From Clostridia bacterium (GTDB taxonomy: Bacteria > Bacillota > Clostridia > Oscillospirales > Acutalibacteraceae): 55,150 nt of DNA. The notes under the pieces are model-generated. The model searched no databases and was not told the origin of the DNA. It saw only the letters and a program-made list of their open reading frames with translations. Shown here in pieces: positions 34,866 through 55,150 of this stretch. The position numbers were made by a program, and so were the translations under genes. The number at the start of each line of letters is the position of its first letter. The first letter of the stretch is position 1. Where the stretch lies: the NCBI GenBank assembly GCA_017548045.1, contig JAFYNR010000010.1, positions 99,271 to 154,420 of the forward strand, written 5' to 3'.

Positions 34866-34874
34866 ACTTGCATA

Positions 34875-34904
34875 TGTGGATAACTCGGTGGAAAAAGTGG
34901 ATAA
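34875..34904 (-). promoter_or_regulatory. Pair of DnaA-box-like nonamers 21 bp apart
   Basis: On the minus strand, TTATCCACA (34875-34883) matches the bacterial DnaA box exactly and TTATCCACT (34896-34904) misses one base. On the plus strand they form a direct repeat GTGGATAACTC spaced two helical turns apart. Confidence 0.5.
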
Positions 34905-35024
34905 CTCCCCTTTTTGGTGAAAAAAACAGGTGAAATCCGTAAAGTTTTCCACTTTACACGCTTTTTTAGTTCTTATTCAGAATAATTATATGCAGTATAT
35001 ACCGTATAACAGGTGAATTATTTT

Positions 35025-35055
35025 TGCAGGATTGCAATAAATATCCTGCATTTTT
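35025..35055 (+). terminator. Terminator-like hairpin on the plus strand with no matching gene
   Basis: TGCAGGAT (35025-35032) pairs with ATCCTGCA (35043-35050) and is followed by TTTTT. It would end a plus-strand transcript, yet the only plus-strand gene upstream is nagA, 280 bp away. Confidence 0.6.
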
Positions 35056-35104
35056 CTACAAATTTCGTAAAGCAAATCCACTTTACAAAACTGCACATAA
35101 ACCG

Positions 35105-35137
35105 CAGAAAAAGCCCCCCGGCTCATCACCGGGGGGC
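35105..35137 (-). terminator. Terminator of the 3315-residue repeat protein gene
   Basis: Read on the minus strand, GCCCCCCGG pairs perfectly with CCGGGGGGC (35113-35121 with 35129-35137) around a 7-nt loop, followed by TTTTTCTG. Confidence 0.93.
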
Positions 35138-35145
35138 CTTTGAAA

Positions 35146-38100
35146 TTATTTGAGTTTACCTGTAACCTGATCGATTCTTACGATACCGATTGAGTGGTCA
35201 CCGATGTAGGTAGCATCGATAGCATCAACATATGCGTTGCCGTCTACGTTAGCTGCCTTTGCAAGATAGTGAACATACTTTGCTGAACCGGGGTTAGCCC
35301 ACGATGTCAGACCTGCTGCTTCATCATATACATAGGTAGCGTCGATAGCCTGAACAACTGAGTCACCGTTGATATCGCCGAAGATAACGATGTGGAATGA
35401 TTCAACAAGGATATCATCGCTTGTATCATCAGGTGTACCCATTCTGTTGTATACGTTGATTACAGTACCTGTACCTGTGTATTCCCAAGTACCGCCGAGA
35501 CCGTTTTCAACGTGGATAAGCTCGATTCTGCCGTCACCGGATACGTCGATATACTTCTCAAGAAGCTCGGGAGCCTTGATGTATTCCTTAATACCGTATA
35601 CGTACCACTTGCTGGTTTCTGCATCGTAATCGTCTACCGTGCCGCCTGCTCTGTCGATAACAGTTGTGCAGGTGTCATTCTTGGGAATAAGCATAACCTT
35701 AACGGGCACGTAAATTGCATACAGTGCAAGGTCGCTTGCGGGCATTGTAATCTCTGTTACGATGCTTTCAGCATCGCCTTCAACTGTTGACCAGCCGAGG
35801 AAGGTGTAATGCTCGAAGGTACCGGGATCGCCGGGCACTGCTACTGTATCACCCATCTGCTTTGACTGTGTTGCGTAATCATACTTAACGTCAGGTGAAA
35901 TGGGGCCGCCTTCAGCAGGCTTATAATCATAGAATACTACGTCGAACTCTGTCTTGTTCCAGATTGCTATGTACTCTGCACCGTCAGCATCCATCTTGCC
36001 GAAGTCTGTAACGGGAGTTTCGGGATCATCGGGAGTTGCCCAACCGCCGAATTCATAGCCTTCCTTAACAGGTTTTTCTGTGGGAGGAACGATATCCTCG
36101 CCGAAGGTGATGTCTGTTACGAATGTTGAGCTGTCTGTGCTTTCGAACTTACCGTCGCCGGCATCAAACTTAGCTTCAAATTCATCTGCTCCGAAATCAG
36201 CGTAAACAGTTACGTCGTTTGCAGGCATAATTGAAGGAATTGTTGCTTCATTGCCTTCTGCATCAACCCAGCCCTTGAATACGAAGCCTTCAACAACGGG
36301 ATCTGCTACGGGAGCAACTGCCTCGTTGTAGTAGTATTCTTCGGTATCGGTTTCACCGTTAACAACAACGTTCAGCTTGTAAACGTTTCTTACAAGGTAT
36401 GCCTTGAACACGAGAGTTCCTGTTGCGGGAACGGTGCCTGTAAGCACGCTTGCTTCTTCGTTAAGAGTGAAGCCTTCGGGAACTGTGTATTCAACGGTCT
36501 TTGTTGTATCAACAACACCGTCGGTGTAAGTTACTGTTGAGGTTGCTGCGTCGGGATATGCACCCTCAGTATCCATTTCATAAACTTCAAGAACATAGCT
36601 TACGTTGCTGTTTGCAGTCCACTTTGCAGTGAATTCAAGGTCAGCAGCAGGCATTGAAGTGTAGTCAGCAGGCTGCTTGCCGTCCTTATCGAACCAGCCT
36701 TCAAAGCTGTATCCGACCTTAACGGGAGCTGTGGGAACGGGAACAGACTCGCCGTATTCAACGGCTGTGGGTCCGTCATAAACTGTGCCTTCGTTTACGT
36801 AAGTTACGTTATACTTGTTAACTGTCCACGTAGCCTTGATAACTACGTCGTCAGCAGGCATTGTTGAGGGAACGTCAACTTCATTGCCTTCAGCGTCTAC
36901 CCATTTATAGAAGGTGTTGCCTTCCTTAACGGGAGTTTCAACGGGTGCAACGGGTGCTTCGTAGGGATATTCAACCTCTGTTACAACGCCGTCAACATCA
37001 ATCTTCAATGTGTTGATTTCACGCTCATAATATACTTTAAGAACAAGTGAACCGTCAGCGGCTACGATGCCTTCAAGAACTGATTTTGCGTTATCAACTG
37101 TGAAGTTTTCATCTGCGTCGGGAGTTGCTGTTACGGTAGCCTTTGTTGTACCGTTATTGAAGGTGTCAACTCTTGTTGCTGTGTCGGAGTAGGTCTTGTC
37201 AGCCTTCATATAGTAATGCTCAACCTTATACTCTACATCGGTAGCTTCTGACCATACTGCATAGAATGCGGTATCGCCTGCACCGATTTCGCCGAGATCG
37301 TCAATGATGTTCTCGCCGTCTGTTGACCAGCCTTCAAATACATAACCGTCCTTTGAAGGTTTGTCTTCGGGAGCGGTGATGTAATCTTCATAAAGAACAT
37401 CGACTGAATCAAATGCTTCTGTATCGCCGAGATCTTTGTAGAAGTATGCAGTATATGTGTTCTTATCCCACTGTGCAGTGATCTGAACTCTGCTTGCGGG
37501 CATTGTTTCGGGCAGAGCTGACCATCCCTTGAAGGTATGACCGGGCTGAGTGGGATCTGTTGCGGGAACAGGCATATCAGCCTTTGCTGTACCGAAATCA
37601 ACCTTATACTGCTCATAAATGCCGTTATAGGTTCTGTAAATAAGGTCATATTCAACAACTTCCCAGGTTGCGTAGTAGTTAACGTCTCTTGCGGGAGTTG
37701 AAACTACGTTTGCGAAGTCAACAACCTTACCTGTTGCATCATCTACCCAGCCAGTGAAATCATAACCTTCCTTGGTTGCTACGGGAGCGGAAATACCTAC
37801 GCCATAGTCATTTTCGGTCTGCTGGATAACGTTTGTCATCTTGCTGTCTGAATAGAAGGTTACTGTGAACTTGGCAAGCTCCCATACTGCTGTAAGAGCT
37901 GTATCCTCAGCAGGCATTGTTGAAGGAACGTCAACGATATTGCCGTCTGCATCCTTCCAGCCCTTGAAGTCGTAGCCTTCCTTAACAGGCTTTTCGGGAG
38001 CAACGATTGCAGTGCCGTAATCCTGAGTGATGGGAAGAACGTTTGAGCCGCCGTCAGCATTGAAGCTGATTGTATACTTGTTGATTTCCCACTGTGCGTC

Positions 38101-41100: not shown

Positions 41101-44100
41101 AGCAGGAGCTGTAACATCGGTCTTATAAGCCTGTGTGATGGGAGCAATTACGCTGTCGCCTGTGTTTGCGAAGGTAATTGTGTATTCATTGGGAACCCAG
41201 ATTGCGTAGTATGTATCACCGTCAAGAGGCATTGTTACGGGGAACTGAACTGCCTTTGCTTCGTCGGTTTCGCCCTGAGTTTCAGCCCAGCCCTTGAAAG
41301 TGTAGCCTTCCTTGGTGGTTACTGCTGCAGGAGCATTAACGTCTGAACCGTATGCTGCAGTGATGGGGTCAATAGCTGTACCGCCGTCTGCATTGAAGGT
41401 GATTGTATAATCGTTGGTAATCCACTGAGCAACGTAAGCTGCATTTGCCACTGCAACTGTTGATACGTTCTTATCCCAGCTCTTGAAGGTATAACCTGTC
41501 TTTGAAGCTGTGGGAACTGCAACTGCTGCGCCGTGGAAATACTGAGCTGATGCCGCACCGTCAAGTGTGCCGCCTTCTGTTGCGTCAAATGTTACTGTGT
41601 AAAGGTTTCTTGCGTAGTAAACTTCAAGAACTGTGTCACCGTTTGCAGAAACAGTACCGGTAAGAACGCTCTTTGCAGTATCTACATAGAAGCCTTCGGG
41701 AATGTTTGTAACTGCTGTTACTGTTGCGTTGGTTGTGCCTGTTCTCTCGTCTACAACGGGATTTGCTTCATCGTAAGCACCTGTTGTATCCATTGTGTAA
41801 TACTTAACAGTGTAAGGTGTATCTGTTGCGGCATCCCACTGTGCGGTAAAGGTCTGATCCTCAGTACCCATAACGCCTACAATGTTATCCCAGCCTGCGA
41901 ATACATAACCTTTGTATGCAGGAGCTTCGGGAGCAACGATCTCTTCGCCGTAAAGTGTGGGAACAGTCTTTGTGGTTTCGGCTGATTCGCCTTCGCCCCA
42001 AGCACCGCCGTTTGCATTAAAGACAGCGTTGTGTGAATCCACTGTATAAACTGCTGTGTATACAAGATCCATAGCGGGCATATTGGTTTCAACCGCAGGT
42101 GACCACTCCTTAAAGGTGTGACCAACCTTTACGGGTGCGGCAGGAGCAACGATTGTTTCGTTATAATCATAGGTATCAACCTGATTTTCGCTGCCGTTAT
42201 CGAATATCCATGTTACTGTATATTCGTTGATTAACCAGTCTGCTTCAAGCTCTACGTTCTCAGCAGGCATTGTTGCGGGAACATCTGCCTTGTTGCCTTC
42301 TGCGTCAAGCCAGCCGTTGAAGGTATAACCCTTCTTAACGGGGTCTGCAGGAGCAACGATTTCTGAGCCGTAATCCTGAGTGATGGGATCAATCGTGCTG
42401 TCACCTGTTTCGGTGAAGGTGATTGTATACTGCTTAGCCTTGAGAACTGCGTAGTAGGTTACATCTTCAGCGGGCATTGTTGCTGCAACGGTGCCTGCCT
42501 CTGTTGCGTTTTCATCCTCTGACCAACCGATGAAGTCATAGCCTGTAACATCGGGATCTGCAGGGATTTCCATTTCGCCTTCGTAGATAATATCGAATTC
42601 GTCGTAAACTTCGCCTTCAACAATCCAGGTTACGGTGTATTCGGCAGGAGTCCAGACAGCTTCAAATACCATACCGGCCTCATCCATTGTACCTACGTAA
42701 GGATCCCAACCTGCAAAGTCATAGCCTGCCTTGGTGGGATTTTCGGGAGGAGTGATTTCAGAGCCGTACATTACGGGAACTCTGTCATACTCTTCGCCGT
42801 CTACCATGAATACTGCATCATAAATAACTTCTTCAAGGTAGTAGTAAATGTTAACTTCCTTTGCGGGCATCTTCTGACCTGCTGCAAATTCCTTGGTAAG
42901 ACCTACATCTGCATAAGCCTTTGAAAGTGCATAGCCTTCGGGTGCCACGTAGCTGCCGGGCACAGTGATGATTGTGTCACCGTAAGTAACCGAACCGACG
43001 TTAACAATTACAAATCTGTTTGTTACGGGATTAAGCACGTAATACGTTACGGTATAAGTGTTTTCCTCAAATATTGCGTAGTAAACTTCATCTTCTGTGG
43101 GATAATTTGCGGGGAGACCCGAGATGGTTGCACCCGATTTATCCGTTGACCAATCGATGAAGAACTTACCGTCAAGCTGAGGATCCTCGGGAACCTCGAA
43201 GGGAGCGCCTGCTGTTACAATGCGCTTGATTTCGGTATCACCGATAACAAATGTGATTTCAACGTTGTTTATCCAGAATGCCTTGTAAGTAGCATCGTTA
43301 TAGGGCATTTCTGCAGGAAGGTCTACGATATCTTCCTTTGTGGGATTTTCAACAGATGCGTCAACCCAGCCTGCGAAGGTGTAGCCGTCTCTGACTGCTT
43401 CGGGAACTGCAGCATAGTCAACTGCATCACCGATTGTGCCTTCGATTACGTATGAGGTTTCGCCTGCTGAACCGAAGTTACCGCCGTTTGCATCAAGAGT
43501 AATCTTGCTGTCAATATAAACGGGATAGCTCTTAACGGTTGCGTTTACATCCCAGAGGTGCATACTCAGAGTTTCTTCCTTAACGCCGCCTTCTACACCG
43601 AGAGGAATGTTGATGTAAGCATGTTCGCCTTCACCGGAATTTCTTATTGTCTCTTCAACAATAAAGAATTCGCCCATTCCGCTTGCGGTATCAAGAACTT
43701 CAAGATCGAACTCGATGAACCATTCGTCACCGCTGATCTTCTTGTTCGTTGAAGGTGAGAAATGATATCTTGCTATGATAGCAGTGTGATTATCAGCGAA
43801 ATCCTGAGTTATGTAACCGTAAGTTATAAGATCCTGGAGTGAATAGTTTGTTCCGTCAATCTTTGCAAATTCACCGTTTACACGGTTGAGAGCTGCTGAG
43901 CTCGTTTCGCTGTCATTGGGAACAAGATCTGTCTGATTATTATATACGTATGAATCAGTGAAGAACTCACTGTCATAGAACATAATAATGTTACCTGCGT
44001 TGGTAAAGTATGAGGTATCTACAAAGAGTCTTGCCTTAACCTTTTCGCCGGGCTTAACTCGGTCTGTGTAAATCCACTCATTTGTTTCGGGGTCAAGTCT

Positions 44101-45093
44101 GTAAATCTTTGTGATGAAGGTAAGCTCTTCGCTTGATTCGGTTGTTGACTTCCAGACTGCCTCGTACTCGCTTGATTCTGCGGGGAATGCGGTTATTTCA
44201 GCCGCTGTGCTGTCGTCTGCACCCTTGAGCTTCCAGCCCATAAACTTGTAGTTGCTTCTTATGGGAGTGGGAACCGTAAGTGCGTCGCCTGCGTCGCCCT
44301 CTGCGTAGAATTCGGTTGTCTTATTTGAAAATTCACCGAGACCTGTATCAAACGATGCAGTTACAAAATTCTCGAAAAGGGTAACCGTCTGGCTGCTGTA
44401 ATCAAGAACAGCATCCCAGTTAGCCATGCTGGTGATTGTTTCGTTGGTGCCGTCGTAAGGTCCCTTGGGAACGTTCATACGGCCCTTTTTGAAGCTTGTT
44501 GAACGGGTTGTTTCTTCAACTGCGAAGAAATCGCCTATGCCCGTGCCGTCAGCCGCATCAGCTTTAACTGTAAGAGGGAATTCGAAAAGCCACTGTGAGC
44601 CGTCGAATTTCTGGTTGTTCGCACCGCTTGTAAAGTGATATGAAATATAAACAAAGTTATGCTTATTTGCAAAATCAGCTGTGATTTTGCCGTTGGCAAT
44701 CATAAAGTTTTCAACGTCTGACGTTGAATCATCGCCTACGTAAGTACCTGTAATTCCGTAGGGAAGAGCTTTGTAATAGGGGTTAACCGTAAGGTCATTC
44801 TGCCCTGCACCGAACGAATCCTCATAGAAATCGTTGTTGTAGAAGAACAGAAGGTTACCTGTGTTAGTGTAGTAATCAGTGTTCAGATATACTCTGGCTC
44901 TGACTTCTTCGCCCTGCTTTACTTTTTCAGTTTCGGTCCACTTTCCGTCAACCTGTCTGAAAATCTTGGTGGTAATGCTTAAAGTGATTCCGTCTTCAGT
45001 TCTTGCACTCCATGCGTTTGCAATCAATGAGAAGGAGCTGAAAATCATTAAGACCGACAAAGCAATGGCTACTAACCTTTTGAATGTTTTCAT
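35146..45093 (-). CDS. Giant secreted InlB-B repeat protein with dockerin-like C-terminus (3315 aa)
   Basis: A Sec signal peptide (MKTFKRLVAIALSVLMIFSS, then a likely cleavage after ANA) precedes two tandem copies of an N-terminal beta domain of about 230 residues (around V-K-x-G-E-x-V-x-A-R). About 30 InlB-B/Listeria-Bacteroides type repeats of about 60-70 residues follow, recognisable by Y-x-F-x-G-W cores (hand count). At least four MucBP-like modules with a Y-x-M-D-T-x-G-x-Y signature are interspersed. The C-terminal unit has a G-T-G-x-V-I-N-V-Y strand, a dockerin-like pair of Asp-rich loops (GDINGDSVVQAIDATY and ANVDGNAYVDAIDATY), and the tail RIDQVTGKLK. No LPxTG signal or catalytic domain is seen. 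AAGGAGGC precedes the ATG. It is probably an adhesin or cell-surface fibre, which is inference. Confidence 0.88.
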   Translation of the reverse strand: MKTFKRLVAIALSVLMIFSSFSLIANAWSARTEDGITLSITTKIFRQVDGKWTETEKVKQGEEVRARVYLNTDYYTNTGNLLFFYNNDFYEDSFGAGQNDLTVNPYYKALPYGITGTYVGDDSTSDVENFMIANGKITADFANKHNFVYISYHFTSGANNQKFDGSQWLFEFPLTVKADAADGTGIGDFFAVEETTRSTSFKKGRMNVPKGPYDGTNETITSMANWDAVLDYSSQTVTLFENFVTASFDTGLGEFSNKTTEFYAEGDAGDALTVPTPIRSNYKFMGWKLKGADDSTAAEITAFPAESSEYEAVWKSTTESSEELTFITKIYRLDPETNEWIYTDRVKPGEKVKARLFVDTSYFTNAGNIIMFYDSEFFTDSYVYNNQTDLVPNDSETSSAALNRVNGEFAKIDGTNYSLQDLITYGYITQDFADNHTAIIARYHFSPSTNKKISGDEWFIEFDLEVLDTASGMGEFFIVEETIRNSGEGEHAYINIPLGVEGGVKEETLSMHLWDVNATVKSYPVYIDSKITLDANGGNFGSAGETSYVIEGTIGDAVDYAAVPEAVRDGYTFAGWVDASVENPTKEDIVDLPAEMPYNDATYKAFWINNVEITFVIGDTEIKRIVTAGAPFEVPEDPQLDGKFFIDWSTDKSGATISGLPANYPTEDEVYYAIFEENTYTVTYYVLNPVTNRFVIVNVGSVTYGDTIITVPGSYVAPEGYALSKAYADVGLTKEFAAGQKMPAKEVNIYYYLEEVIYDAVFMVDGEEYDRVPVMYGSEITPPENPTKAGYDFAGWDPYVGTMDEAGMVFEAVWTPAEYTVTWIVEGEVYDEFDIIYEGEMEIPADPDVTGYDFIGWSEDENATEAGTVAATMPAEDVTYYAVLKAKQYTITFTETGDSTIDPITQDYGSEIVAPADPVKKGYTFNGWLDAEGNKADVPATMPAENVELEADWLINEYTVTWIFDNGSENQVDTYDYNETIVAPAAPVKVGHTFKEWSPAVETNMPAMDLVYTAVYTVDSHNAVFNANGGAWGEGESAETTKTVPTLYGEEIVAPEAPAYKGYVFAGWDNIVGVMGTEDQTFTAQWDAATDTPYTVKYYTMDTTGAYDEANPVVDERTGTTNATVTAVTNIPEGFYVDTAKSVLTGTVSANGDTVLEVYYARNLYTVTFDATEGGTLDGAASAQYFHGAAVAVPTASKTGYTFKSWDKNVSTVAVANAAYVAQWITNDYTITFNADGGTAIDPITAAYGSDVNAPAAVTTKEGYTFKGWAETQGETDEAKAVQFPVTMPLDGDTYYAIWVPNEYTITFANTGDSVIAPITQAYKTDVTAPADPVMEGHKFEGWDTDVPATMPAYDMTITAKWSVVSYDVTWDVDGATTTEKVEFGAEIVAPEDPQKDGYTFDGWSPEVPATMPAEEQTFTATWDANEYKITFNTDGGDEVADIVADYESDISSKIPEDPEKTGYDFAGWVDENNNPATVPSTMPLEGMELTATWTPKSDTAFKVVVHYNDYTTGDAMTEEFADYTGTTGYAIEIVEATPDELAAETVYVLLEDLAISNYELDETAENQLTGIVAADGSTVLNLYYVPVKRTITFDANEGAFEDGELTKAVEVSHGSLIKPNAPADPVREGYTFTGWGGLSDTLTAGGNRTFKANWEAKTYTITWKYEDDVTADKVDSYSYDGIITMPANPTREGYDFTGWAWTNEDGEVVAAPSKMPAYNVIATASWDILSYDVTWKVDDKSTTESVEYGAEIVAPADPEKEGYTFTGWSPEVPENMPAGEQTFTAQWAVNPYTVSYYVYEPATGKFAAAGTKTVDYGTVIPTEVPADYTVPAGYSLVAKAYTDVSLTSALADGKTMPAENIALYYELEANTYDAVFNVDGVEHETVPTKFGEQIVAPSDPTKTGYTFTGWSPEVGVMNDVNGKTYEAQWEAKTYNANFKANGGLFADGETTTVVETKFGEAIVAPAAPVKEGNKFVGWAETATATEAGTVAATMPANDVTYYAVYKVEQYTIKFDTDGGTAVADIVADYGSPITAPAAPKKTGYSFAGWDSLPATMPEGGKTVKALWTVNNYTVTWKVDGNTIKSETLAYGSAIVAPADPEKEGNEFDGWTPTPEATMPAQNLEYSATWKIKSYTATFDANGGKYSDDSTTKTDVFEFGEVVTAPEIPQHTGYAFAGWEPALGTMPAANTTYKAVWTVGEAKAYTIEVYTMDTTGAYGQPTTETKTANVGEVVKVTATPGEGFYIDETKENVLQATITAEEATVLKVYYARDEYDITFNGNEGTVDGEVSVSDTYYHGATVVAPAAERTGYSLIGWSPALSTVAVKDATYDAQWEINKYTISFNADGGSNVLPITQDYGTAIVAPEKPVKEGYDFKGWKDADGNIVDVPSTMPAEDTALTAVWELAKFTVTFYSDSKMTNVIQQTENDYGVGISAPVATKEGYDFTGWVDDATGKVVDFANVVSTPARDVNYYATWEVVEYDLIYRTYNGIYEQYKVDFGTAKADMPVPATDPTQPGHTFKGWSALPETMPASRVQITAQWDKNTYTAYFYKDLGDTEAFDSVDVLYEDYITAPEDKPSKDGYVFEGWSTDGENIIDDLGEIGAGDTAFYAVWSEATDVEYKVEHYYMKADKTYSDTATRVDTFNNGTTKATVTATPDADENFTVDNAKSVLEGIVAADGSLVLKVYYEREINTLKIDVDGVVTEVEYPYEAPVAPVETPVKEGNTFYKWVDAEGNEVDVPSTMPADDVVIKATWTVNKYNVTYVNEGTVYDGPTAVEYGESVPVPTAPVKVGYSFEGWFDKDGKQPADYTSMPAADLEFTAKWTANSNVSYVLEVYEMDTEGAYPDAATSTVTYTDGVVDTTKTVEYTVPEGFTLNEEASVLTGTVPATGTLVFKAYLVRNVYKLNVVVNGETDTEEYYYNEAVAPVADPVVEGFVFKGWVDAEGNEATIPSIMPANDVTVYADFGADEFEAKFDAGDGKFESTDSSTFVTDITFGEDIVPPTEKPVKEGYEFGGWATPDDPETPVTDFGKMDADGAEYIAIWNKTEFDVVFYDYKPAEGGPISPDVKYDYATQSKQMGDTVAVPGDPGTFEHYTFLGWSTVEGDAESIVTEITMPASDLALYAIYVPVKVMLIPKNDTCTTVIDRAGGTVDDYDAETSKWYVYGIKEYIKAPELLEKYIDVSGDGRIELIHVENGLGGTWEYTGTGTVINVYNRMGTPDDTSDDILVESFHIVIFGDINGDSVVQAIDATYVYDEAAGLTSWANPGSAKYVHYLAKAANVDGNAYVDAIDATYIGDHSIGIVRIDQVTGKLK

Positions 45094-45250
45094 TAGAGTA
45101 TGCCTCCTTGTCTGTTATTCCGCCTGCATAGCGGAACTTGCGAAACAGAGGGGCTCTTGCTCCCCTGCTTCAAAGATACGTGGGGTTCCTCATCGGGCGG
45201 AGGGAGGTTGAATCCCTCCGCCAAGTGATTTCAGGTTAGGATTGCTTAAA
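45094..45250 (-). other. 157-bp intergenic spacer with hairpins between two giant genes
   Basis: It contains a perfect 10-bp stem (45196-45205 with 45213-45222) just after the upstream stop, and a TTCCGC/GCGGAA hairpin near the ribosome binding site of the downstream gene (45119-45137). The large stem has no T tract on the minus strand, and no promoter was recognised. The two giant genes are therefore likely cotranscribed, with the hairpin acting as an mRNA stability or partial attenuation element. Confidence 0.5.
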
Positions 45251-48200
45251 TCAGGAAGGTCTGCCCGTTACCTGATTTATTCTGAGCATACCGATTGATA
45301 CGTCACCAATGATCTGAGCATCGGTTGCATCAATGATTCCGTCGCCGTTAAGGTCTGCAGCCTTGATCTTATAGGGATCGTAATTGGGATTATCAATTAC
45401 AACGCCCTGTTCAGCATCATAAACCTTTTCTTCAGACCAGTTGGTTGTCATAAGGCCTTCGTCATCAGCATAGGTGCTGTCAACTGCTGTAATAAGTGAG
45501 TCACCGTCGATATCACCGTAGATAACGATTACGTATGTTTCGATGGGTGTTGAAGGATCAAGGTTATCATAAAGCTCAACCTTTGCGCCTGTACCGCAGT
45601 AATCGCTTACTGAAGGTGTTACGGTGAAGAAGCCGTCGCCTTCAACATCAAGGTATGTGCTGCGGAGTGTGCCTTCCTTCAGGTACTCTTTAAGACCTGT
45701 GATAACAAAGTTTGTTCTGTCTATCTCAGTTTTTGAACCGTCTTTAGCAATAAGCTTAACAGCCATTCTGTTGAATACGGGTTCAACTGTGATATCGTGA
45801 GCAGGCATTGCATCATAGATGATGTTCCACTCAACGAATTCATAGTGTTCCTTAACGGGGTCATCATCGGGAACGGGGATTTCGTCGCCGTATCTTACCA
45901 TTTCGGTTGCGAATACGGAGCCGTCAGCGTTGAGATAAGTTACCTTGAAGATAGCAACTGCGAAGTCAGCAACGATGATCATATCGTTTGCGGGCATCTT
46001 GAAGGTTGCGCCGGGAACATATTCTGTTTCACCGTCGAACCAGCCGTTGAAGGTCATGCCTTCAGCTTTGGGAGCTTCCTTAACTGTTACTGTTGCGCCG
46101 TATGCATAGGTTTCGGTTGTCTTAACACCGTTTACAACGTATGTTACGGTGTATTCATCCTCAGCCCATGTTGCGGTGAACTCAAGGTTGCCTTCGGGCA
46201 TTGTTGCGGGAACCTCGGGAGTCCAGCCTGCGAATACGTAGCCGTCCTTTGTGGGTTCTGCGGGAGCAACGATTTCTGCACCGTAGTAAACGGTATCTGT
46301 TGTTTCTGTGCCATCAACATTCCAGGTTACTGTGTAAGTATCTCTGTCATAGTAGATGGTAAGAACTGTTGAACCGTCTGCTGCAACAAGGTCGCTCAGG
46401 TGGCTCTTTTCAAGGTTGGGTGTAAGGCCGGGAAGGTCGTTGTTAGCCTCAACCCATGAGGTTGTGCCTGTTACGCCGAAGGTGTATGCAACTGTCTTTG
46501 CATATGTTGCGCCGTCAGTGTTCATTGTGTAGATTTCGATTGTTACCTTGGTGTTTGCACCTGCGGTAAATCTTGCCTCATAAACGGTATCGGTTGTGGG
46601 CATCTTGCCGTTGAATGCAGTGTTTGTACCCTTGACATACCAGCCAACGAAGTTGTAGCCTTCCTTCTTGGGATCTGCGGGAGCAGTGATTGCTGAATCA
46701 ACCTTTGCGTCTACGGGGTAGCCCTCTACTGTTACGCCTTCAACTTCGAAGCTGAGGCTTACGGTGTTAGCTGTGAATACGGGAGTGATTACCATATCCT
46801 TTTCAGCGGTAACGGGGAATTCAACTGCGTTGCCGTCCTTGTCTACCCAACCGCCGAATGTGTAGCCATCCTTTGAGGGATCTTCGGGTTCTTCAATCTC
46901 CTCACCGTAGTAATAAGTGTCCTTATCACCGTTGATTGTGATTGAAACTGTATTTCTGGTGTAGTAGATATAGATTACTGTTGAGCCGTTGCCTGCGATT
47001 GTAGCCTTAGCGGGATCAATGTTATAAACGGTGAAGCCTGCTTCGCCTTCATCTTCAGCCTTAAGCTCTACTGTTGAACCTGCCTTTGCGGTTCTTACGT
47101 CATCAACAGGTTCTGCCCATGTGAGGCCGTCGGTATTCTGGAATACCTTCTTAACGGTGTAGTTAACGTCGTTTGCCTCAAGGAGTGCGTAGTATGTTAC
47201 GCCGCCAACGGGAACGGTTTCTGTTGCGAGATCAACCTTTTCGCCGTCTTCTGTCTTAGCCCAGCCCTTGAAGGTGTAGCCGGGAATCTTTTCCTGAGCA
47301 GGATCGCCGGGGTTAACGATTGCTGTGCCGAAATCGTATGTGCCCTTGCTGTATTCCTGACCTGCAACTACGAACTTAACTTCATAGGGAATGGGAGCAA
47401 AGTCGGGTGTGATTGTTACATCATTTGCAGGAACTGTGTAGGGGAAGGTAACTGTGTCGCCTTCTGCATCTACCCAACCGATGAATTCATAGCCTGCATC
47501 TGCTTCGGGAGCTTCCATTTCGATGGTTTCGCCGTAGAAATATTCCTCAGCTTCGCCGTCGATTGTTACTGTAACCTTGTTACGGCTGTAATATACCTTG
47601 ATAACCATCAGTCCGTCGCCTGTTACGGTGCCGGTAAGAACTGATCTGTCTTCAACTGTGAAGCCGGTCTTTGCTTCGGGAACATAGTTGATAACGGTAT
47701 CTGTTACGTCGTACTTGGTTTCGCTTGACTTAGCATAGGTTGAACCGTTGGTGTTCATAACGTATGTTTCAACGGTGTACGGTGTGCCTGAAGCGGCAGT
47801 AAGGATTGCGTAGTATGTTACGCCGTCAACGGGAACTGTTTCTGTTGCAAGGTCAACTGCTGTTGAGCCGTCCTTTGACCAGCCGCCGAAGTCGTAGCCG
47901 GCAGGTGCTGTGTATGCGGGAGCGATTTCAGAAATCTTTGTGCCGAATGCATACTCGCCTGTTGCAACTGTGCCGTTCTTATCAATGAATGTTACTGTGT
48001 ATTCGATGGGAGTAAGCTTTGCGGTGTAGGTTGTAGCCTTTGAGGGAACGGTTGTTACACCTGCTTCAACCTTAACGCCGTCTGCAAACCAGCCGTCAAA
48101 CGTGTAACCGGGAACGTTTACATCTGCGGGAACACTGAGAATCTCGCCGAATGTCTGATTGCTCTTCTGAACTTCTTCGTCACCGTTCATGAAGGTGATT

Positions 48201-51200
48201 TCGAATTCTGAAGCCTTGTAGTTGGGATTGATAACGATATCTTCGGTACCAATCTTTACGGGGAATTCAACGGGATCGCCATTGCCGTCTACCCAACCGT
48301 CAGGTTCTTTACCTTCGGGTGCTGTGGGATGAGCAGGCATATCCTCTTCCTTGATTTCTTCGCCGTAGTACATATCATCTTCTTCACCGTTGATTGTTAC
48401 CTTAACGGTGTTACGGTCATAGTATACCTTGAAGATTGTTGTGCCGTCGCCCTTAACCATTGCGGTAAGAACATTTTCAGCATTGTCGCTGTCGAAGGTG
48501 AAGCCTTCGTAATCAGCGGCTGTAACGGTCTTTTCTGCACCTGCAACGCCGTCGGTAAGAACTTCTGTCTTAGCGGCATCCTTGGTGTAGGTTGCGCCGT
48601 CAGTTTCCATAAAGTACTTCTCGATTGTGTACTGAACATCGGTTGCGGATTCAAGAACTGCATAGAAGGTCTTGCCTTCTGCAACTGTTGTATCCATTGT
48701 GCCGAGGTCAGCGAGTGCTTCTGTTGCGCCCTTTGTTGCAGCCCAGCCGATGAAGCTGTAGCCTTCGGGAAGTTCTGCTGTGGGAGCAGCGGGAGCAGTG
48801 ATAGCTGACTTATAAGCTACGCTCTGAGTTGTGTAAGCAACTTCGTTGCCTTCATAAGCGATTACGTAGTCTACGGGATATTCGATGGGATTAAGAACTG
48901 CATAAAGTGTTACAGCTTCTGTACCCATTGCGCCAAGGTCTGCATCTGCTGATTCAGCGTCTGCGTTTCTTGACCAGCCGAGGAAGTTGTAGCCTGCGGG
49001 AGCGGCTGTGTAATCATCGGATGCTGTGAGAGCTGCTTCGTAGTAAACCTCTGCAGTGTCAACTGTTTCGCCGAGTGCAACATAGTTTACTGCATATTTA
49101 TTACGGATATAGTATGCGCTGAGAACTGTTGAGCCGTCGCCTGCAACTGTATCGCTGAGCTTACCTGCTGAAGTGTCAAGTGTGAAGCCTTCAACTTCAA
49201 CGTTGTATGAAACGGGAGTTTCAGCCACTTCGTGGAGCGTAACAACATCGGCTGCGCCGTAGTTGCCTTCTGTATCCATAAAGTATCTGTTAACCTTGTA
49301 GTCTACGCCGCCTGCTGAGGGAGCATAAACTGCTGTGTAGGTTACGCCGTTAAGAGGAACAGTTACGGTTGAAAGATCCTCAATAACTGTTACGCCGCCG
49401 TCTGCTGTCCAGCCCTTGAATTCGTAGCCGGGCTTAACGTTATCTGTTACAACTGTATCGGGAACTGTGATGTTTGATTCATAGCTCTGTGAAGACTCTG
49501 TTACAGTGCCTTCAACGTTGAAGCTGACAGTGTATTTGTTTGCAATCCATTCAGCGTAGTATTCCTGACCTTCATCATAGATTTCGCCAAGCTCTACGCC
49601 CCAAGGCATTTCAGTGTCAAGGTGATAGCCTTCTCTTACGGGAAGCTCGATTTCGGGAACAACCGAACCGTAAGCAACCTGGATGGTTCTTTCTGTATCG
49701 CCGTTGAGCCATGCACCGTCGTTTGCATAGAATACAACGTCAAACTCCTGAATTTCAAAGTAACCGCGGATTGTAATATCCTTTGTTACCGTGTAGGGGA
49801 AGGTGGGAGCTGAAGCGCCGATCTTCCAGCCTGTGAATCTGTAGCCTTCGATTTCTGTGCTTGGAAGGTCTGCTTCTTCGATTGTATCGCCGTAGAGCAA
49901 GCCTTCAAGACTGCCTACTTCTTCACCTTCATATTCGGGAACACCGATGAAGTATACTTTTACGGTGTATTCGATATCTGTTACGGCTGCAATGTTATCG
50001 TAAACATATCTGCCTGCAACATCGGGATCCTCAACAAAGTATGTTTCTGTATCGGCATCGATTACGTCGATAACATCCTGCTGCCACATAACGAATGTTG
50101 TACCGGGTGTGGGAAGAATATCATCTGTGGGATCTTCGGGAACTTCTACATCGTCACCGAATGAATACACATCGCTGAAATAGATTTCAGTCATTGCGTC
50201 GTCAAGCCAGTAGTTAACAACGTAAGTATTCTTTACCCATTTACCTGTTACGGTAACGTTATTCGTACCAACAGTGTAAACGCCGCCGTCTTCAACTGCG
50301 CCTGCAACGGTCCAGCCGAGGAAGGTCCAGCCTGCTGCTTCCTGCTCGTCAAGAGCAATTTCATCGCCCATATTTGCTGTGGTTATCTGAGCAGGAGGAT
50401 CGATGGGAGCTACGCCGTCAAATACATATGTTACTGTGTAATCTGTTGCTTTATAGAGAGCTGTGTAAGTTGCATCGCCTTCAAGTCTGAATTCCTGACC
50501 TGCTGTGAGAGCAACTGTTGCGCCGTCAAGTGACCAGCCAAGGAAGGTTTCGCCTGCCTTTTCGGGACCTGCGGGAGCATTCTTAAGTGCGTAATATGTT
50601 CCTTCGACTGCCTCAGCACCCTGGAAGGCTGCTGTGTAAGTTTTGGGAATGTAATAGAGATTAAGCTCTGCGCCGTCTGCCGTAACAACCTTTGAGGTTT
50701 CGTTTGCGGCATCGGGATTAAGCTTATAGTTTTCAAGAGCAAGTCTTGAATCGCTGAACAGAACGTTTGTTACCTTATCGCCTGCTGCTGCAGCTTCGGT
50801 GATTGTAACTGTGTTTTCTGTTACTGTTGCAATTTCAACAACCTTTGTTGCAGCCTGACCGTTGGTCTGGTCAACGTAGTTGATGATAATCTTCGCTGTG
50901 TTTGCAGCGGGAGTATAGGTTGCAGTGTAAGCTACATCAGCAAGACCCATTGTTGCGGTATCGCCTTCCTGAAGAAGAACGTCGCCGTTCTGCCAGCCTG
51001 CGAATGCATAGCCATCCTTAGCAGGACCTGCGGGAGCAGCATAAGTTGCACCGTAGAGAACAGGAACTTCGGTTTCACCGAAGGTTGCCTTATTCTCGTT
51101 TCTCTTGAGGAAGATTTCAACAAAAGCTTCACCGTCAGCAGTAACTTCTACATCCCCTGCTGTGCTCTTTGCTGTATCAAGAGTGAAGCCTGCGGGAACA

Positions 51201-52264
51201 CTGTAAGCCGAGGCGTTAACAAGTGTGCCGGGTGTTGAGGGAACGTTTGTGGGCTCTACTGTTTCGGGATATGCACCGTTTGTTCCCATTTCGTAAACGT
51301 ACTGCTTATAGGTTGCGTTTGCAGCCTGGAAAACAGCTGTAAGGGTAAGGGGTTCATAGCCGATTGTGAGCTCTTTAATCTGGTCTTCGGTAAGAACGGT
51401 TGAGCCGTCTGTTGACCAGCCAAGGAACTGCTTACCGTCTGCGGAAGCAGTGGGAAGTGAGAAGCCTGCGATTGTTGAAAGCTTGTCACCGATATAGCCT
51501 GTGTATGAGGCTGTACCTGCAACTGAACCTTCGTTTGCCTTGAACACTACTGTGTTGTCACATGAAAGTGAGCTGTCAGCGTCGGTATCGTTGAGGGTGT
51601 AACCGAATGTGCCTGTGGGTACTTCAGTTGAAATGTATTCTTCTCCATCAACTATACCGGTAATTGTTGTGGGAGCAAGCCAGTTGTCATAGTCTGAAAT
51701 GAAATCCAAAGCCATAAAGAACTGACCATTACCTGTAGGCTCTTCGTTAACAATAAAATCAATTTCGAAGAACCATTCGGAGCCATCAAATGTCATTGCT
51801 GAACCAGCCGGTTTGAATGGGCCCATAAAAATCCATGATTTATCGGCAATATCATCTTCTGTTATATAACCGTCATAAATCATATCATCAAATATGTTGT
51901 CGTAGCCTTTGCCGTTAGCAAGATTACCGGTGTACTTACCGCCATTAACAGGAACAGCGATTGAGCCTTTGTATGAGCCTTCATCATATCCTTCAAAAGT
52001 AGGAGTCAAAAACTCCGAAGAATAAAAATAAAGCAAACTGGCAAGTGCAAGGTCGAAATCCGTAGTCAAGAAAACTCTTGCCTTTACGTGTTCTCCTTTT
52101 GCCGCTTTTGTGGTTTCAACCCACTCTGCTCCGTCATATCTGTAAAATTTGGTATCTACCGACCAATTAAGTTCTGCGTCAGCAGCCGTTGCAAGAAGCG
52201 AAACGGAACCAAAAATCATAAGGAGAGCAAGGAAAAGTGAAACCGACTTTTTGAATAATTTCAT
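45251..52264 (-). CDS. Giant secreted InlB-B/MucBP-like repeat protein with dockerin-like C-terminus (2337 aa)
   Basis: The signal peptide MKLFKKSVSLFLALLMIFGS (cleavage probably after ATA or ADA) precedes one copy of the beta domain found twice in the neighbour, starting SVDTKFYRYDGAEWVETTK. Then come about 20 InlB-B type repeats (Y-x-F-x-G-W cores, hand count). About six or seven MucBP-like modules are present, for example VNRYFMDTEGNYG and IEIYTMNTDGATY, each ending in a T-V-L-x-x-Y-Y-x-R strand. The C-terminal unit contains GTGAKVELYDN, GDIDGDSLITAVDSTY, AADLNGDGIIDATDAQ and the tail RINQVTGRPS. No LPxTG motif is present. GGGAGGAAA lies 5-13 nt before the ATG. It is likely exported and surface-associated; ligand unknown. 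Confidence 0.88.
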   Translation of the reverse strand: MKLFKKSVSLFLALLMIFGSVSLLATAADAELNWSVDTKFYRYDGAEWVETTKAAKGEHVKARVFLTTDFDLALASLLYFYSSEFLTPTFEGYDEGSYKGSIAVPVNGGKYTGNLANGKGYDNIFDDMIYDGYITEDDIADKSWIFMGPFKPAGSAMTFDGSEWFFEIDFIVNEEPTGNGQFFMALDFISDYDNWLAPTTITGIVDGEEYISTEVPTGTFGYTLNDTDADSSLSCDNTVVFKANEGSVAGTASYTGYIGDKLSTIAGFSLPTASADGKQFLGWSTDGSTVLTEDQIKELTIGYEPLTLTAVFQAANATYKQYVYEMGTNGAYPETVEPTNVPSTPGTLVNASAYSVPAGFTLDTAKSTAGDVEVTADGEAFVEIFLKRNENKATFGETEVPVLYGATYAAPAGPAKDGYAFAGWQNGDVLLQEGDTATMGLADVAYTATYTPAANTAKIIINYVDQTNGQAATKVVEIATVTENTVTITEAAAAGDKVTNVLFSDSRLALENYKLNPDAANETSKVVTADGAELNLYYIPKTYTAAFQGAEAVEGTYYALKNAPAGPEKAGETFLGWSLDGATVALTAGQEFRLEGDATYTALYKATDYTVTYVFDGVAPIDPPAQITTANMGDEIALDEQEAAGWTFLGWTVAGAVEDGGVYTVGTNNVTVTGKWVKNTYVVNYWLDDAMTEIYFSDVYSFGDDVEVPEDPTDDILPTPGTTFVMWQQDVIDVIDADTETYFVEDPDVAGRYVYDNIAAVTDIEYTVKVYFIGVPEYEGEEVGSLEGLLYGDTIEEADLPSTEIEGYRFTGWKIGASAPTFPYTVTKDITIRGYFEIQEFDVVFYANDGAWLNGDTERTIQVAYGSVVPEIELPVREGYHLDTEMPWGVELGEIYDEGQEYYAEWIANKYTVSFNVEGTVTESSQSYESNITVPDTVVTDNVKPGYEFKGWTADGGVTVIEDLSTVTVPLNGVTYTAVYAPSAGGVDYKVNRYFMDTEGNYGAADVVTLHEVAETPVSYNVEVEGFTLDTSAGKLSDTVAGDGSTVLSAYYIRNKYAVNYVALGETVDTAEVYYEAALTASDDYTAAPAGYNFLGWSRNADAESADADLGAMGTEAVTLYAVLNPIEYPVDYVIAYEGNEVAYTTQSVAYKSAITAPAAPTAELPEGYSFIGWAATKGATEALADLGTMDTTVAEGKTFYAVLESATDVQYTIEKYFMETDGATYTKDAAKTEVLTDGVAGAEKTVTAADYEGFTFDSDNAENVLTAMVKGDGTTIFKVYYDRNTVKVTINGEEDDMYYGEEIKEEDMPAHPTAPEGKEPDGWVDGNGDPVEFPVKIGTEDIVINPNYKASEFEITFMNGDEEVQKSNQTFGEILSVPADVNVPGYTFDGWFADGVKVEAGVTTVPSKATTYTAKLTPIEYTVTFIDKNGTVATGEYAFGTKISEIAPAYTAPAGYDFGGWSKDGSTAVDLATETVPVDGVTYYAILTAASGTPYTVETYVMNTNGSTYAKSSETKYDVTDTVINYVPEAKTGFTVEDRSVLTGTVTGDGLMVIKVYYSRNKVTVTIDGEAEEYFYGETIEMEAPEADAGYEFIGWVDAEGDTVTFPYTVPANDVTITPDFAPIPYEVKFVVAGQEYSKGTYDFGTAIVNPGDPAQEKIPGYTFKGWAKTEDGEKVDLATETVPVGGVTYYALLEANDVNYTVKKVFQNTDGLTWAEPVDDVRTAKAGSTVELKAEDEGEAGFTVYNIDPAKATIAGNGSTVIYIYYTRNTVSITINGDKDTYYYGEEIEEPEDPSKDGYTFGGWVDKDGNAVEFPVTAEKDMVITPVFTANTVSLSFEVEGVTVEGYPVDAKVDSAITAPADPKKEGYNFVGWYVKGTNTAFNGKMPTTDTVYEARFTAGANTKVTIEIYTMNTDGATYAKTVAYTFGVTGTTSWVEANNDLPGLTPNLEKSHLSDLVAADGSTVLTIYYDRDTYTVTWNVDGTETTDTVYYGAEIVAPAEPTKDGYVFAGWTPEVPATMPEGNLEFTATWAEDEYTVTYVVNGVKTTETYAYGATVTVKEAPKAEGMTFNGWFDGETEYVPGATFKMPANDMIIVADFAVAIFKVTYLNADGSVFATEMVRYGDEIPVPDDDPVKEHYEFVEWNIIYDAMPAHDITVEPVFNRMAVKLIAKDGSKTEIDRTNFVITGLKEYLKEGTLRSTYLDVEGDGFFTVTPSVSDYCGTGAKVELYDNLDPSTPIETYVIVIYGDIDGDSLITAVDSTYADDEGLMTTNWSEEKVYDAEQGVVIDNPNYDPYKIKAADLNGDGIIDATDAQIIGDVSIGMLRINQVTGRPS

Positions 52265-52537
52265 GCATTTTCCTCCCTTAAATTTAAGGAATATCTATTT
52301 GCATTAAGCAAGTGAACATCACCTGCTATAATAGCCTGAATTTTACAAGCAATTTGCAAAATTTCGTCAAATCAAAAATTATATTTTTCCTTTGCAGGGG
52401 TCGATGCTCGCACCGACCTTTTTCCGCAGGGTCGATGAAAGCATCGGCCCCTGCTTTGGGGTAAAAATTTAATCTTCAATTATGGCGTTGCCCACAGAGG
52501 AGCCGGAGCTCCTCCGTGGGAATAATTTTAAGTATGA
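52265..52537 (-). other. 273-bp intergenic region with palindromic repeat element
   Basis: It separates two giant genes. It holds the palindromic element at 52394-52454 and a hairpin CCCAC-GAGGAGC / GCTCCTC-GTGGG (52490-52519, one mismatch) after the stop of the partial gene. It also holds AT-rich DNA upstream of the 2337-residue gene that should contain its promoter, but no well-spaced pair of hexamers was found. Confidence 0.5.
52394..52454. repeat. GGTCGATG-type intergenic palindrome
   Basis: GCAGGGGTCGATGCT (52394-52408) and AGCATCGGCCCCTGC (52440-52454) form a 15-bp inverted repeat with one G-T pair. Each half also contains its own smaller hairpin around (A/G)GGTCGATG. This is typical of dispersed, noncoding palindromes in clostridial genomes. 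On the minus strand it is followed by AAAGGAAAAATATAATTTTT, so it may also terminate the partial gene. Confidence 0.65.
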
Positions 52538-55150
52538 TTAGGAAACTCTACCTGTTATCTGGCTAAGAGTTGCACCGACAATTACTCGGTCAACAAGTGC
52601 ACCGTCGTCACCTGTAAGTCTTCTGTCACCGTTAAGGTTTGCAGCTCTGTAAATATATTCAACTCTTGTTCTCAAAGCTGACCATGTAGGCTTAAGAATT
52701 TCCTTATCGATGGCAGAACTATCGTCTGCCATAACTCTTGCGTTACCGTCGACATCACCGAAGATTACAACGTAGAAGGTTTCAACAGGTGCTGATGTGT
52801 CAGCATTGTCATAAACTTCAACCTTGGTACCTGTACCGAGACGTCCGCTTACAGCAGGAGTTACAACTGCATAACCGTCACCAAGAACCTGAACATAAGT
52901 TGCCAGAAGAACTGAATCTCTCTGACCGGTTCTGAGACCGTAGATAAGGTTCTTTGTGCTGTCTGTTGTTGCAACAAACTCGTCTGTTACGGTGTAACCG
53001 TCATTGTATGACTCGATAGCGCCGTTTCTTTCGATCATCGTTGTTGAGCCTGCCTTGGGAACAAGCTTAACAGCTACCTTCTTGTATACTGCGTAGTATT
53101 CGGTTGCAACGCCTTCGCCCATTGTGATTGCTGTTGTGTCAATTACTTCGCCGCCTTCGGTTGTTGACCAGCCGAGGAAGATCCAGTATTTTTCACTGAT
53201 TTCAGCGTGTGCGGGGAATGTGATTTCTTCGCCGAAGTTAACTTCTGCCTCTGATGCCTTTTCTGCTACGTCTGTCTTCCAGGGTGTTGCAGTTGTTGCT
53301 TCGTAATCATAGAAGGTTACGTTTGCAGCACTGCGCTCGAAGATTGCGTAGTAAACAAGGTTTTCAGCGGGCATCTTTGCATCGGTATTTTCAACATCAA
53401 GGATGTTGCCGTCTGCATCAATCCAATGAACGAATGCCCAACCGTCCTTATCGGGCTCTGAAGGATATTCAAGAGGCTCACCGAAGGTTACGTTGAATAC
53501 TTCGTAGGGTTCTGTTGTTTCGTCTACGTAATCAACATAGTAAGTGATTGTGTAGAAGTCAACTGTTTCTGACCAGATAGCTGTGAAGGTCATACCTTCT
53601 TCATCCATTGTACCTACCATGGGATCCCAGCCGAGGAAGTCATAGCCTTCCTTAACGGGAGCGGCAGGTGCAGGAATTTCGCTGTCGAAAGCAACCATTA
53701 CTTCGTAGGTGCCTGTGCCGTCTGCAAACTCACCGCCGTCTGCATTGAAGATTGCCTTGTATTCGTTAGCGGTTGTCTTTGCATAAAGCTTTGTTACGCC
53801 TGTTGTGTAGGTTGTGCCTTCAACGAAGGGAACGGTGCAATCTGCATCTGTGTACCAGGCGCTGAGTGAGTAGCCTGTGGGTACTGTGTAACCGGGAACA
53901 GCTGTTGAAATTACCTGACCGTATTCGCAGGAAACTGCACCTACGGGAATGCCGTTTACGTAATAAATTACGTCTGCGGTTGTGATTTCAAATACTGCTG
54001 TGTAGGTTACTGCCTTTGCAGGCATTGTGGTATCTGCCTTAAGATATTCGCCCTTTTCGTTTGCCCAACCAATGAAGCGGTAGCCTTCCTTGCCGGGATC
54101 TGCAGGAGCTTCAATCTTTGAACCGTAAGCAACTTCCTTCTGCTCAACTGTTGCACCGTCTGAAACGAAGGTTACAGTGTAGTTGATGGGAGTGAATACG
54201 GGAGTGATAACGATTTCATCGTTTTCGTCGGTAGGTACTGTGTAGGGGAATTCAACCTCGTTGCCGTCCTCATCAACCCAACCGGTATGTTCCATACCTT
54301 CGGGCTCTGTGGGAGCTGTGGGCTCTGCGATTTCTTCACCGTAGTAGTAAGTATCCTTATCGCCGTTTACGATAACTGTTATCTGATCGCGTGTGTAGCG
54401 AACTACGAGAACTGTTGTGCCGTCGCCGTTGATTACGCCGCTGATTGTGTTAGCGTCTGCATCGTAGTTTGTGCCGGATTCGAAGGTGAAGCCTTCATAA
54501 TCCTTAACAGCGTACTTAGCAGTGTCGCCTGCTGTGCCTGTGAATTCTTCTGTGCTTACAAGCTCATAAGTTTCACCGTCGGTTGCCATCTTATAAGTTT
54601 CAACCTTATAAACGATACCGTCGTTAGCTTCGAATACTGCGTAGTAATCTGCACCGTCAACCGTCATTTCGGTAAGTGCGGGATCCCAGTTCTTGAAGGT
54701 GTAACCGGGCTTAGCATTCGTTACGTCGGGAGCAACGGGAACCTTGCCGAAGTCTGTGGCAACTGTTGCGATAACGTTACCGTCAACGTAGAACTTAGCG
54801 TCGTACTGATTAACGGTGAATGTACCGCTGATTACGATGTTTTCAGCAGGCATTGTTGCAGGAGCAACCTTATCCCAACCGCTGAATGTGTAACCTTCCT
54901 TAACGGGAGCTTCGAGAGCTGTTACATCTGAACCGTAAACATAGCTTTCAACCTTGTGCTCTGCACCGTCTACCATATAGGTGATGGTGTAAGTGTTGAT
55001 TGAGAATGTACCGCTGATTACGATGTTTTCGGCAGGCATTGTTGCAGGAGCAACCTTATCCCAACCGCTGAATGTGTAACCTTCCTTAACGGGAGCTTCG
55101 AGAGCTGTTACATCTGAACCGTAAACATAGCTTTCAACCTTGTGCTCTGC
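52538..55150 (-). CDS. Secreted InlB-B repeat protein with dockerin-like C-terminus, 5' end outside window (at least 870 aa)
   Basis: The frame is open to the right edge of the window, so the ATG at 55037-55039 is internal and the signal peptide is not visible. About nine InlB-B type repeats can be counted (YTFSGWDK, YTFKNWDP, YRFIGWAN, YDFLGWDP and others) plus one MucBP-like module with VETYKMATDGETYE. The C-terminal unit has GTGTKVEVYDN, the loops GDVDGNARVMADDSS and ANLNGDRRLTGDDG, and the tail TLSQITGRVS. It is the same architecture as the two genes downstream and lies 273 nt before the next one on the same strand. The two repeats at the edge are nearly identical at DNA level. Confidence 0.85.
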   Translation of the reverse strand, partial: AEHKVESYVYGSDVTALEAPVKEGYTFSGWDKVAPATMPAENIVISGTFSINTYTITYMVDGAEHKVESYVYGSDVTALEAPVKEGYTFSGWDKVAPATMPAENIVISGTFTVNQYDAKFYVDGNVIATVATDFGKVPVAPDVTNAKPGYTFKNWDPALTEMTVDGADYYAVFEANDGIVYKVETYKMATDGETYELVSTEEFTGTAGDTAKYAVKDYEGFTFESGTNYDADANTISGVINGDGTTVLVVRYTRDQITVIVNGDKDTYYYGEEIAEPTAPTEPEGMEHTGWVDEDGNEVEFPYTVPTDENDEIVITPVFTPINYTVTFVSDGATVEQKEVAYGSKIEAPADPGKEGYRFIGWANEKGEYLKADTTMPAKAVTYTAVFEITTADVIYYVNGIPVGAVSCEYGQVISTAVPGYTVPTGYSLSAWYTDADCTVPFVEGTTYTTGVTKLYAKTTANEYKAIFNADGGEFADGTGTYEVMVAFDSEIPAPAAPVKEGYDFLGWDPMVGTMDEEGMTFTAIWSETVDFYTITYYVDYVDETTEPYEVFNVTFGEPLEYPSEPDKDGWAFVHWIDADGNILDVENTDAKMPAENLVYYAIFERSAANVTFYDYEATTATPWKTDVAEKASEAEVNFGEEITFPAHAEISEKYWIFLGWSTTEGGEVIDTTAITMGEGVATEYYAVYKKVAVKLVPKAGSTTMIERNGAIESYNDGYTVTDEFVATTDSTKNLIYGLRTGQRDSVLLATYVQVLGDGYAVVTPAVSGRLGTGTKVEVYDNADTSAPVETFYVVIFGDVDGNARVMADDSSAIDKEILKPTWSALRTRVEYIYRAANLNGDRRLTGDDGALVDRVIVGATLSQITGRVS
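54820..55150 (-). repeat. Nearly identical 186-bp tandem repeat units at the window edge
   Basis: The stretch from about 54820 recurs 186 bp later (for example CATTGTTGCAGGAGCAACC at 54851 and 55037) with only a few differences, and it continues to the last base. Each unit encodes one 62-residue InlB-B repeat. Other repeats in these genes are far more diverged, so this pair is recent. Confidence 0.9.

Follow-up and report, generated by a model that had tools for sequence, protein, structure and literature searches.

Three consecutive genes encode giant repeat proteins that share a C-terminal dockerin and, in the two whose beginnings are visible, open with one or two domains related to cohesins by profile comparison. 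On this architecture we put forward an enzyme-free cohesin-dockerin surface scaffold, in which the dockerins of the stalk-like proteins would dock on the N-terminal domains of a wall-anchored paralog, and perhaps on those of each other. We give this scheme an even chance of being right.

The Array and Its Genomic Setting

On contig C65, which is 154420 bases long, the window analyzed here (the whole stretch of 55,150 bases) spans positions 99271-154420 and thus extends to the contig end. The source genome comprises 2.38 Mb in 68 contigs and is rated 85.7% complete. As the initial annotation had described, positions 35146-55150 are filled by three consecutive minus-strand open reading frames, with intergenic gaps that the coordinates put at 157 and 273 bases. 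The N-terminal domain is abbreviated ND in the following list of features.

35146..45093, minus strand: gene 1, 3315 aa; signal peptide, two cohesin-like NDs, InlB/List-Bact repeats, C-terminal module and dockerin
44371..45015, minus strand: gene 1, ND copy 1 (cohesin-like; remote cohesin by profile comparison)
43504..44145, minus strand: gene 1, ND copy 2 (cohesin-like; remote cohesin by profile comparison)
35704..43503, minus strand: gene 1, repeat stalk (Pfam Flg_new and Flg_new_2)
35146..35703, minus strand: gene 1, C-terminal unit, ~90-aa module and dockerin (Pfam dockerin match at ~35209-35379)
45251..52264, minus strand: gene 2, 2337 aa; signal peptide, one cohesin-like ND, repeats, C-terminal module and dockerin
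51545..52186, minus strand: gene 2, ND (cohesin-like)
45767..51544, minus strand: gene 2, repeat stalk (15 Flg_new and 5 Flg_new_2 stretches)
45251..45766, minus strand: gene 2, C-terminal unit with dockerin (Pfam match at ~45308-45520)
52538..55150, minus strand: gene 3, at least 870 aa, 5' end open at the contig end; repeats and C-terminal unit
52538..53092, minus strand: gene 3, C-terminal unit (dockerin at ~52550-52762, placed by eye; family-profile match)

Genes 1 and 2 open with apparent signal peptides, as judged by inspection. Gene 3 runs off the contig end, and so its start and signal peptide lie outside the sequence; its positional ortholog in a related genome (G044:C22:14622-25343) is a protein of 3574 aa with both a signal peptide and an ND. 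The export signals originally ascribed to all three proteins can therefore be seen in two of them and, for the third, in its ortholog. The absence of a cell-wall or membrane anchor and of enzymatic domains, proposed at the same time, holds: by inspection, none of the three C-termini has an LPxTG motif or a membrane helix, and no catalytic Pfam domain is recognized in the array genes, with gene 3 visible in part.

Promoter and terminator counts from a scan of 34700-54600 are at chance level (26 against a mean of 24.8, and 18 against 21.4), and we therefore make no operon claim based on them. Neither Rfam families nor tRNAs were found within the window. Within 54500-55150, where window and contig both end, 119 bases are directly and exactly repeated at a spacing of 186 bases, which perhaps caused the assembly to break; Tandem Repeats Finder reported no repeat on gene 3, this exact repeat notwithstanding.

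The proteins had been described as made almost wholly of small beta repeats. Repeats are indeed present in all three: Pfam Flg_new (the Listeria-Bacteroides repeat or InlB B-repeat; PF09479), which we take to be a small beta-grasp unit, matches 29, 15, and 6 stretches in genes 1, 2, and 3, respectively (E values of 1.8e-227, 2.5e-95, and 2e-51), and the Pfam scan also finds stretches of Flg_new_2. In gene 1 as a whole the Flg_new stretches number 29 and those of Flg_new_2 10, and the two NDs have at least one such stretch between them. A PDB search with gene 2 led to Internalin B. An internalin identity suggested by NCBIfam models was discarded, their matches being far below the cut-offs and reflecting the shared repeat. 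What the description had missed is the ND itself, a domain of ~200 aa after the signal peptide, present as a pair in gene 1 and singly in gene 2.

The C-Terminal Unit Is a Module Followed by a Dockerin

The C-terminal ~170-190 residues of the three proteins are homologous (42 and 34% identity to those of gene 1) and consist of a module of ~90 residues followed by a divergent dockerin, which belongs to the family by sequence match and is type I-like. When whole proteins are searched with PF00404, gene 1 matches with an E value of 0.00082 (20 bits, below the cut-off of 22.9) and gene 2 with 0.0001 (22.9 bits, equal to the cut-off), while gene 3 gives no match at E<=0.01 and its dockerin is recognized through the family profile. 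The gene 2 unit alone reaches 30.9 bits against the same cut-off of 22.9, and PF00404 matches 32 of 33 such units at E<=1, the best at 3e-9. Compared with the PDB, a profile of the three array units finds the ScaB dockerin (4uyp/4uyq, E 2e-7); a 33-row profile again finds 4uyp (E 4.5e-7), the top match being 8x39 (1.4e-7), deposited as a serine protease. The shared dockerin-like unit of the initial annotation is borne out by these matches. In cellulosomes, a beta-rich module preceding a dockerin is the XMod-Doc layout (PMC4266597, in excerpt), and the module-dockerin dyad of the array proteins would be their attachment end.

Across the 33 divergent units, no variation is seen in the G-D, G, and last D of the first calcium loop or in a tryptophan located between the two loops, and a glutamine of the tail is conserved in at least 90%. 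By eye, the first calcium loop is well conserved in the array dockerins; the second is preserved in gene 2, less well so in genes 1 and 3, and degenerate in many relatives. At the recognition positions of type I dockerins, the window units are near-symmetric (AI/AI, AV/AT, and AD/GD); over the 33 units this symmetry is inconsistent, with a pattern that mislocated the second loop in several rows, and we base no conclusion on it.

Given the degenerate second loop, one could see in the C-terminal unit a relic, or a cap folded by calcium, that binds no cohesin, the proteins being simply secreted or loosely wall-bound. Four genomes of the genus with a C-terminal unit (E<=1e-20) have neither an ND nor a PF00963 cohesin, which points in the same direction. 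However, the invariance of the first loop and of the inter-loop tryptophan, together with the conserved tail glutamine, argues against a relic or cap, as does the fact that the unit occupies the place of a sortase-type end in paralogs (see below). We consider this explanation improbable.

The N-Terminal Domain Is Related to Cohesins at the Profile Level

The cohesin fold is a nine-stranded jelly-roll that binds dockerins. By profile comparison, the ND is a remote cohesin. Using hhalign, 49 NDs aligned to 12 PF00963 cohesins of relatives with scores of 33.8 and 38.8 in either order (probabilities of 77 and 89%) over 135 columns, against 3.7-3.8 for reversed profiles and 10.0 for the best of 150 column-shuffled cohesin profiles. 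An earlier comparison with untrimmed alignments had given a score of 29.8 and a probability of 59%. Profiles of other domains from the same organisms scored at most 11.5 against the ND, with 2.8-3.6 for Big_2 (14 sequences) and 4.0-11.5 for CBM3 (only four sequences), and the profiles of the C-terminal module, dockerin, and repeats did not exceed 6.4. Homology of the ND to cohesins is thus found above the controls.

Two further searches converge on the same family. When 35 NDs were compared with all of Pfam (E<=1), Cohesin was the most-matched family (5 of 35, best E 0.0015), the next being matched by two. Furthermore, the 12-sequence cohesin profile, run over the whole genome up to an E value of 10, returned a single match (E 8.6e-4), which falls within the ND of a 647-aa frame on contig C27. 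The relationship is visible at the level of profiles, and we count it as such because few single NDs beat shuffled sequences: with a plain cohesin HMM, 6 of 35 scored above 9.0 bits, the maximum among 1050 shuffled sequences, with 26.9, 18.5, 16.5, and 14.7 bits for the top NDs and 2.9-5.8 for the three of the window. ND profiles gave no significant match in the PDB (0 hits in one search, then two kinases at E values of 1.1 and 1.3). PF00963 itself has no match anywhere in the source genome at E<=0.001, NDs included. The earlier statement that the window holds no cohesin is accordingly accurate as far as Pfam PF00963 goes and gives way where the ND is recognized as a remote cohesin by profile comparison. 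Two alternatives had been raised for these proteins, a partner elsewhere that holds them on the cell or mutual assembly of the units; the cohesin-like ND would be a concrete candidate for both.

Recurrence of the Array among Relatives

With a profile built from the three window NDs and a threshold of E<=1e-5, below which further relatives may lie, 33 of 45 genomes of the genus contain the domain, as against 0 of 54 genomes outside it, drawn from other genera of its family and order. The double ND had no match among plasmid records.

A search of genome contigs by ND alignment, based on one peptide pattern and hence biased to near relatives, recovered 12 loci. All of them are from uncultured Clostridia MAGs of goat, sheep, water deer, or water buffalo caecum, colon, or rectum, and they come from the same genomes as the genus set, so that they do not form an independent sample. 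At least three consecutive genes end in the C-terminal unit at 8 of the 12 loci; at three others two such genes are visible, cut by the contig start, and the last (L100) is of the sortase-anchored type. The last gene of the array carries two NDs in 11 of 11 array loci. Four array-type genes stand in a row in genome G044, that of locus L091.

On the ND tree, first NDs of the double-ND gene group in one clade in 11 of 12 cases (support 100/97), and those of gene 2 in another in 8 of 9 (97/93), locus L098 being the exception in both. These clades suggest that the array is older than the species that carry it. Second NDs are separate from first NDs and interspersed with those of tail-bearing proteins, with weaker support. 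In six of seven relatives examined, the array adjoins a gene of ~700 aa, followed by genes that we read as pyrH, frr, and uppS. In the source genome the corresponding site, on contig C18, holds a different dockerin protein of 1814 aa, and the array lies elsewhere.

Exchange of Dockerin and Sortase-Type Ends

The ND, usually together with repeats, is also found on proteins with C-termini other than a dockerin. Among the 63 rows of the ND tree, classed by custom patterns and with one record appearing twice, 37 belong to proteins with a dockerin, nine to proteins with a PxTG-hydrophobic-basic end, and seven and five to proteins with two kinds of hydrophobic tail; four more are on frames cut by the stretch and one is unclassed. 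The source genome itself contains an anchored paralog on C27, a protein of 2267 aa with an ND, repeats, the motif IPDTG, a hydrophobic stretch, and the terminal RKKKDEE, as well as one sortase match, at C58. The strongest indication that the dockerin may serve for attachment is its replacement by a sortase-type end in proteins that are alike in other respects: the C-terminal unit stands where the sortase-type end stands in paralogs with ND and repeats, which fits such a role. By the same exchange, the anchored cohesin-like paralog is the natural candidate for a receptor.

The two other kinds of tail deserve separate description. A hydrophobic tail of the form ...YAWWQxIxRILxLGFxWY is common to exported repeat proteins, most of them with an ND (C2:8051-10573 in the source genome; L139, L140, L143, and L144; G044:C22:66654-68636), and is possibly an unrecognized surface-retention signal. 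The second recurrent tail, on other ND proteins, consists of two phenylalanine-rich stretches near the C-terminus (C27:25239-27137, which is L043:7240-9138; L141, L146, L147, L149, L153, and L156). Closely similar ND-like proteins are also present at two contig ends, C33:1-753 and the end of C2 (L045:4381-7875), perhaps as split copies of one repeated gene family.

Dockerins, Cohesins, and Possible Partners

Beyond the array, a search of the genome for dockerin genes found two more, on C66 and C18, bringing the number to five. These encode large proteins (C18:62679-68123, 1814 aa; C66:12860-17833, about 1660 aa) in which the Pfam scan finds no repeats and no other domains. Among the matches listed, dockerins occur in frames of ~1560-1880 aa in many genomes of the genus. 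In genome G035 (contigs C1 and C21), frames of 393-585 aa carry several C-terminal units each, and this genome yields neither an ND (E<=1e-5) nor a PF00963 cohesin.

The cohesin-like NDs recall the modules of scaffoldins, and a mucinolysome in the gut bacterium Limousia is a system of that type (PMC12997984, in excerpt). One could thus envisage an enzyme complex, either cellulosome or mucinolysome, with enzymes docking onto the NDs of the giant proteins. We disfavor this possibility strongly and regard it as very unlikely, since dockerins were found on five genes only and no catalytic Pfam domain is recognized on any of them, gene 3 being visible in part. A cellulosome in the source genome was likewise considered and rejected: in an assembly rated 85.7% complete there is no PF00963 scaffoldin, and no dockerin-bearing enzyme is found among the five genes. 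This agrees with the initial annotation, which had preferred a surface fiber to a cellulosome and had named a conventional cohesin and scaffoldin set in the same genome as the finding that would speak against it; PF00963 detects none.

The main alternative is that the ND, with a cohesin-like fold, is a ligand-binding tip for a host glycan, mucin, or plant polymer, and that the partner of the dockerins is a classical scaffoldin or wall cohesin absent from the incomplete assembly; the proteins would then be stalked adhesins that an ordinary cohesin holds in place. The ND follows the signal peptide in most ND proteins, whichever C-terminal end they have, be it dockerin, PxTG anchor, or hydrophobic tail, and a tip should occupy such a position. 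Its presence on proteins with the two other kinds of tail is equally compatible with a general N-terminal adhesive domain. In addition, 12 of the 44 other genomes in the genus encode PF00963 cohesins, some in frames of up to 3186 aa, and the source genome is incomplete, so that a classical scaffoldin may be missing here. Against a missing scaffoldin, the cohesin profile derived from relatives retrieves only an ND from the source genome, where PF00963 is silent, and the distribution of C-terminal units in the genus is not associated with that of PF00963 cohesins. Of the 26 genomes with strong units (E<=1e-38), 25 also have the ND (Fisher p 7e-5) and six have PF00963 cohesins (p 0.73); of the 33 with units at E<=1e-20, 28 have the ND (p 0.007) and eight have PF00963 cohesins (p 0.70). 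This evidence is weak, because kinship is uncorrected in these counts and the co-occurrence with the ND is inflated, both modules usually sharing a gene. We deem stalked adhesins of this kind possible rather than probable.

In the enzyme-free scaffold that we prefer, each array protein would be exported and would start with one or two cohesin-like NDs (for gene 3, as judged from the positional ortholog), with a long InlB-type repeat stalk between this end and the module-dockerin attachment end. The dockerins would plug into the ND of the sortase-anchored C27 paralog and so fix the array proteins to the wall. Possibly they would also plug into the NDs of one another, giving a longer fiber. In its fullest form, which we advance tentatively and think rather unlikely, the system would be a self-assembling fiber: three stalks, each with an N-terminal socket of cohesin type and a C-terminal dockerin plug, would be chained head to tail and capped onto the wall by the sortase-anchored paralog, giving a polymer that is free of enzymes and based on a genus-specific cohesin family. 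The pairing of partners, the anchoring to the wall, and a role in adhesion are likewise proposed.

Comparison with Known Systems and Significance

Enzyme complexes are the main setting in which cohesin-dockerin pairs are known, as a code for assembly. The array proteins have the same stalk repeat (PF09479) as InlB B-repeat or Listeria-Bacteroides repeat surface proteins and add to it a dockerin and a cohesin-like domain; to our knowledge, neither has been described on such surface proteins. A literature search covering few subscription journals returned no paper joining a dockerin with the InlB B-repeat or Listeria-Bacteroides repeat, and none on the InlB B-repeat together with gut and Clostridia.

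A non-cellulosomal cohesin-dockerin pairing of secreted proteins exists in the X82 system of Clostridium perfringens, where the modules are carried by glycoside hydrolases. The array would, by analogy, represent another such pairing, whereas its modules are on non-catalytic repeat stalks. The X82 cohesin and dockerin system is mentioned in the excerpted text of PMC12997984, which also describes the Limousia mucinolysome. There, the C-terminal dockerins of scaffoldins are predicted to bind cSca5, an LPxTG-anchored cohesin protein, so that a gut bacterium with C-terminal dockerins and an anchored cohesin receptor offers a parallel to our scheme. In contrast, Limousia has multi-cohesin scaffoldins and dockerin-bearing CAZymes (PMC12997984, same excerpt), and in the source genome we found no PF00963 cohesin and no dockerin enzyme. 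Another parallel is provided by the adhesion complex between the CttA XMod-Doc and the ScaE cohesin of Ruminococcus flavefaciens (PMC4266597, in excerpt). It is an enzyme-free adhesion branch with a beta-rich module and dockerin on the attached protein, and its partner cohesin is on a protein with a C-terminal sortase motif, features that the proposed scaffold would share. CttA differs in having two N-terminal CBMs, whereas the array proteins have an InlB-type repeat stalk and an N-terminus that is itself cohesin-like.

If the proposed scaffold is correct, the cohesin-dockerin code would also serve the assembly of surface fibers, a divergent cohesin family being used only for joining and anchoring non-catalytic stalks in a recurrent multi-gene system of ruminant-hindgut Clostridia. 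It would extend the cohesin family past the reach of Pfam and provide binding pairs that are new and possibly orthogonal. Finally, it would explain how giant InlB-repeat proteins are retained on the cell without an LPxTG motif.
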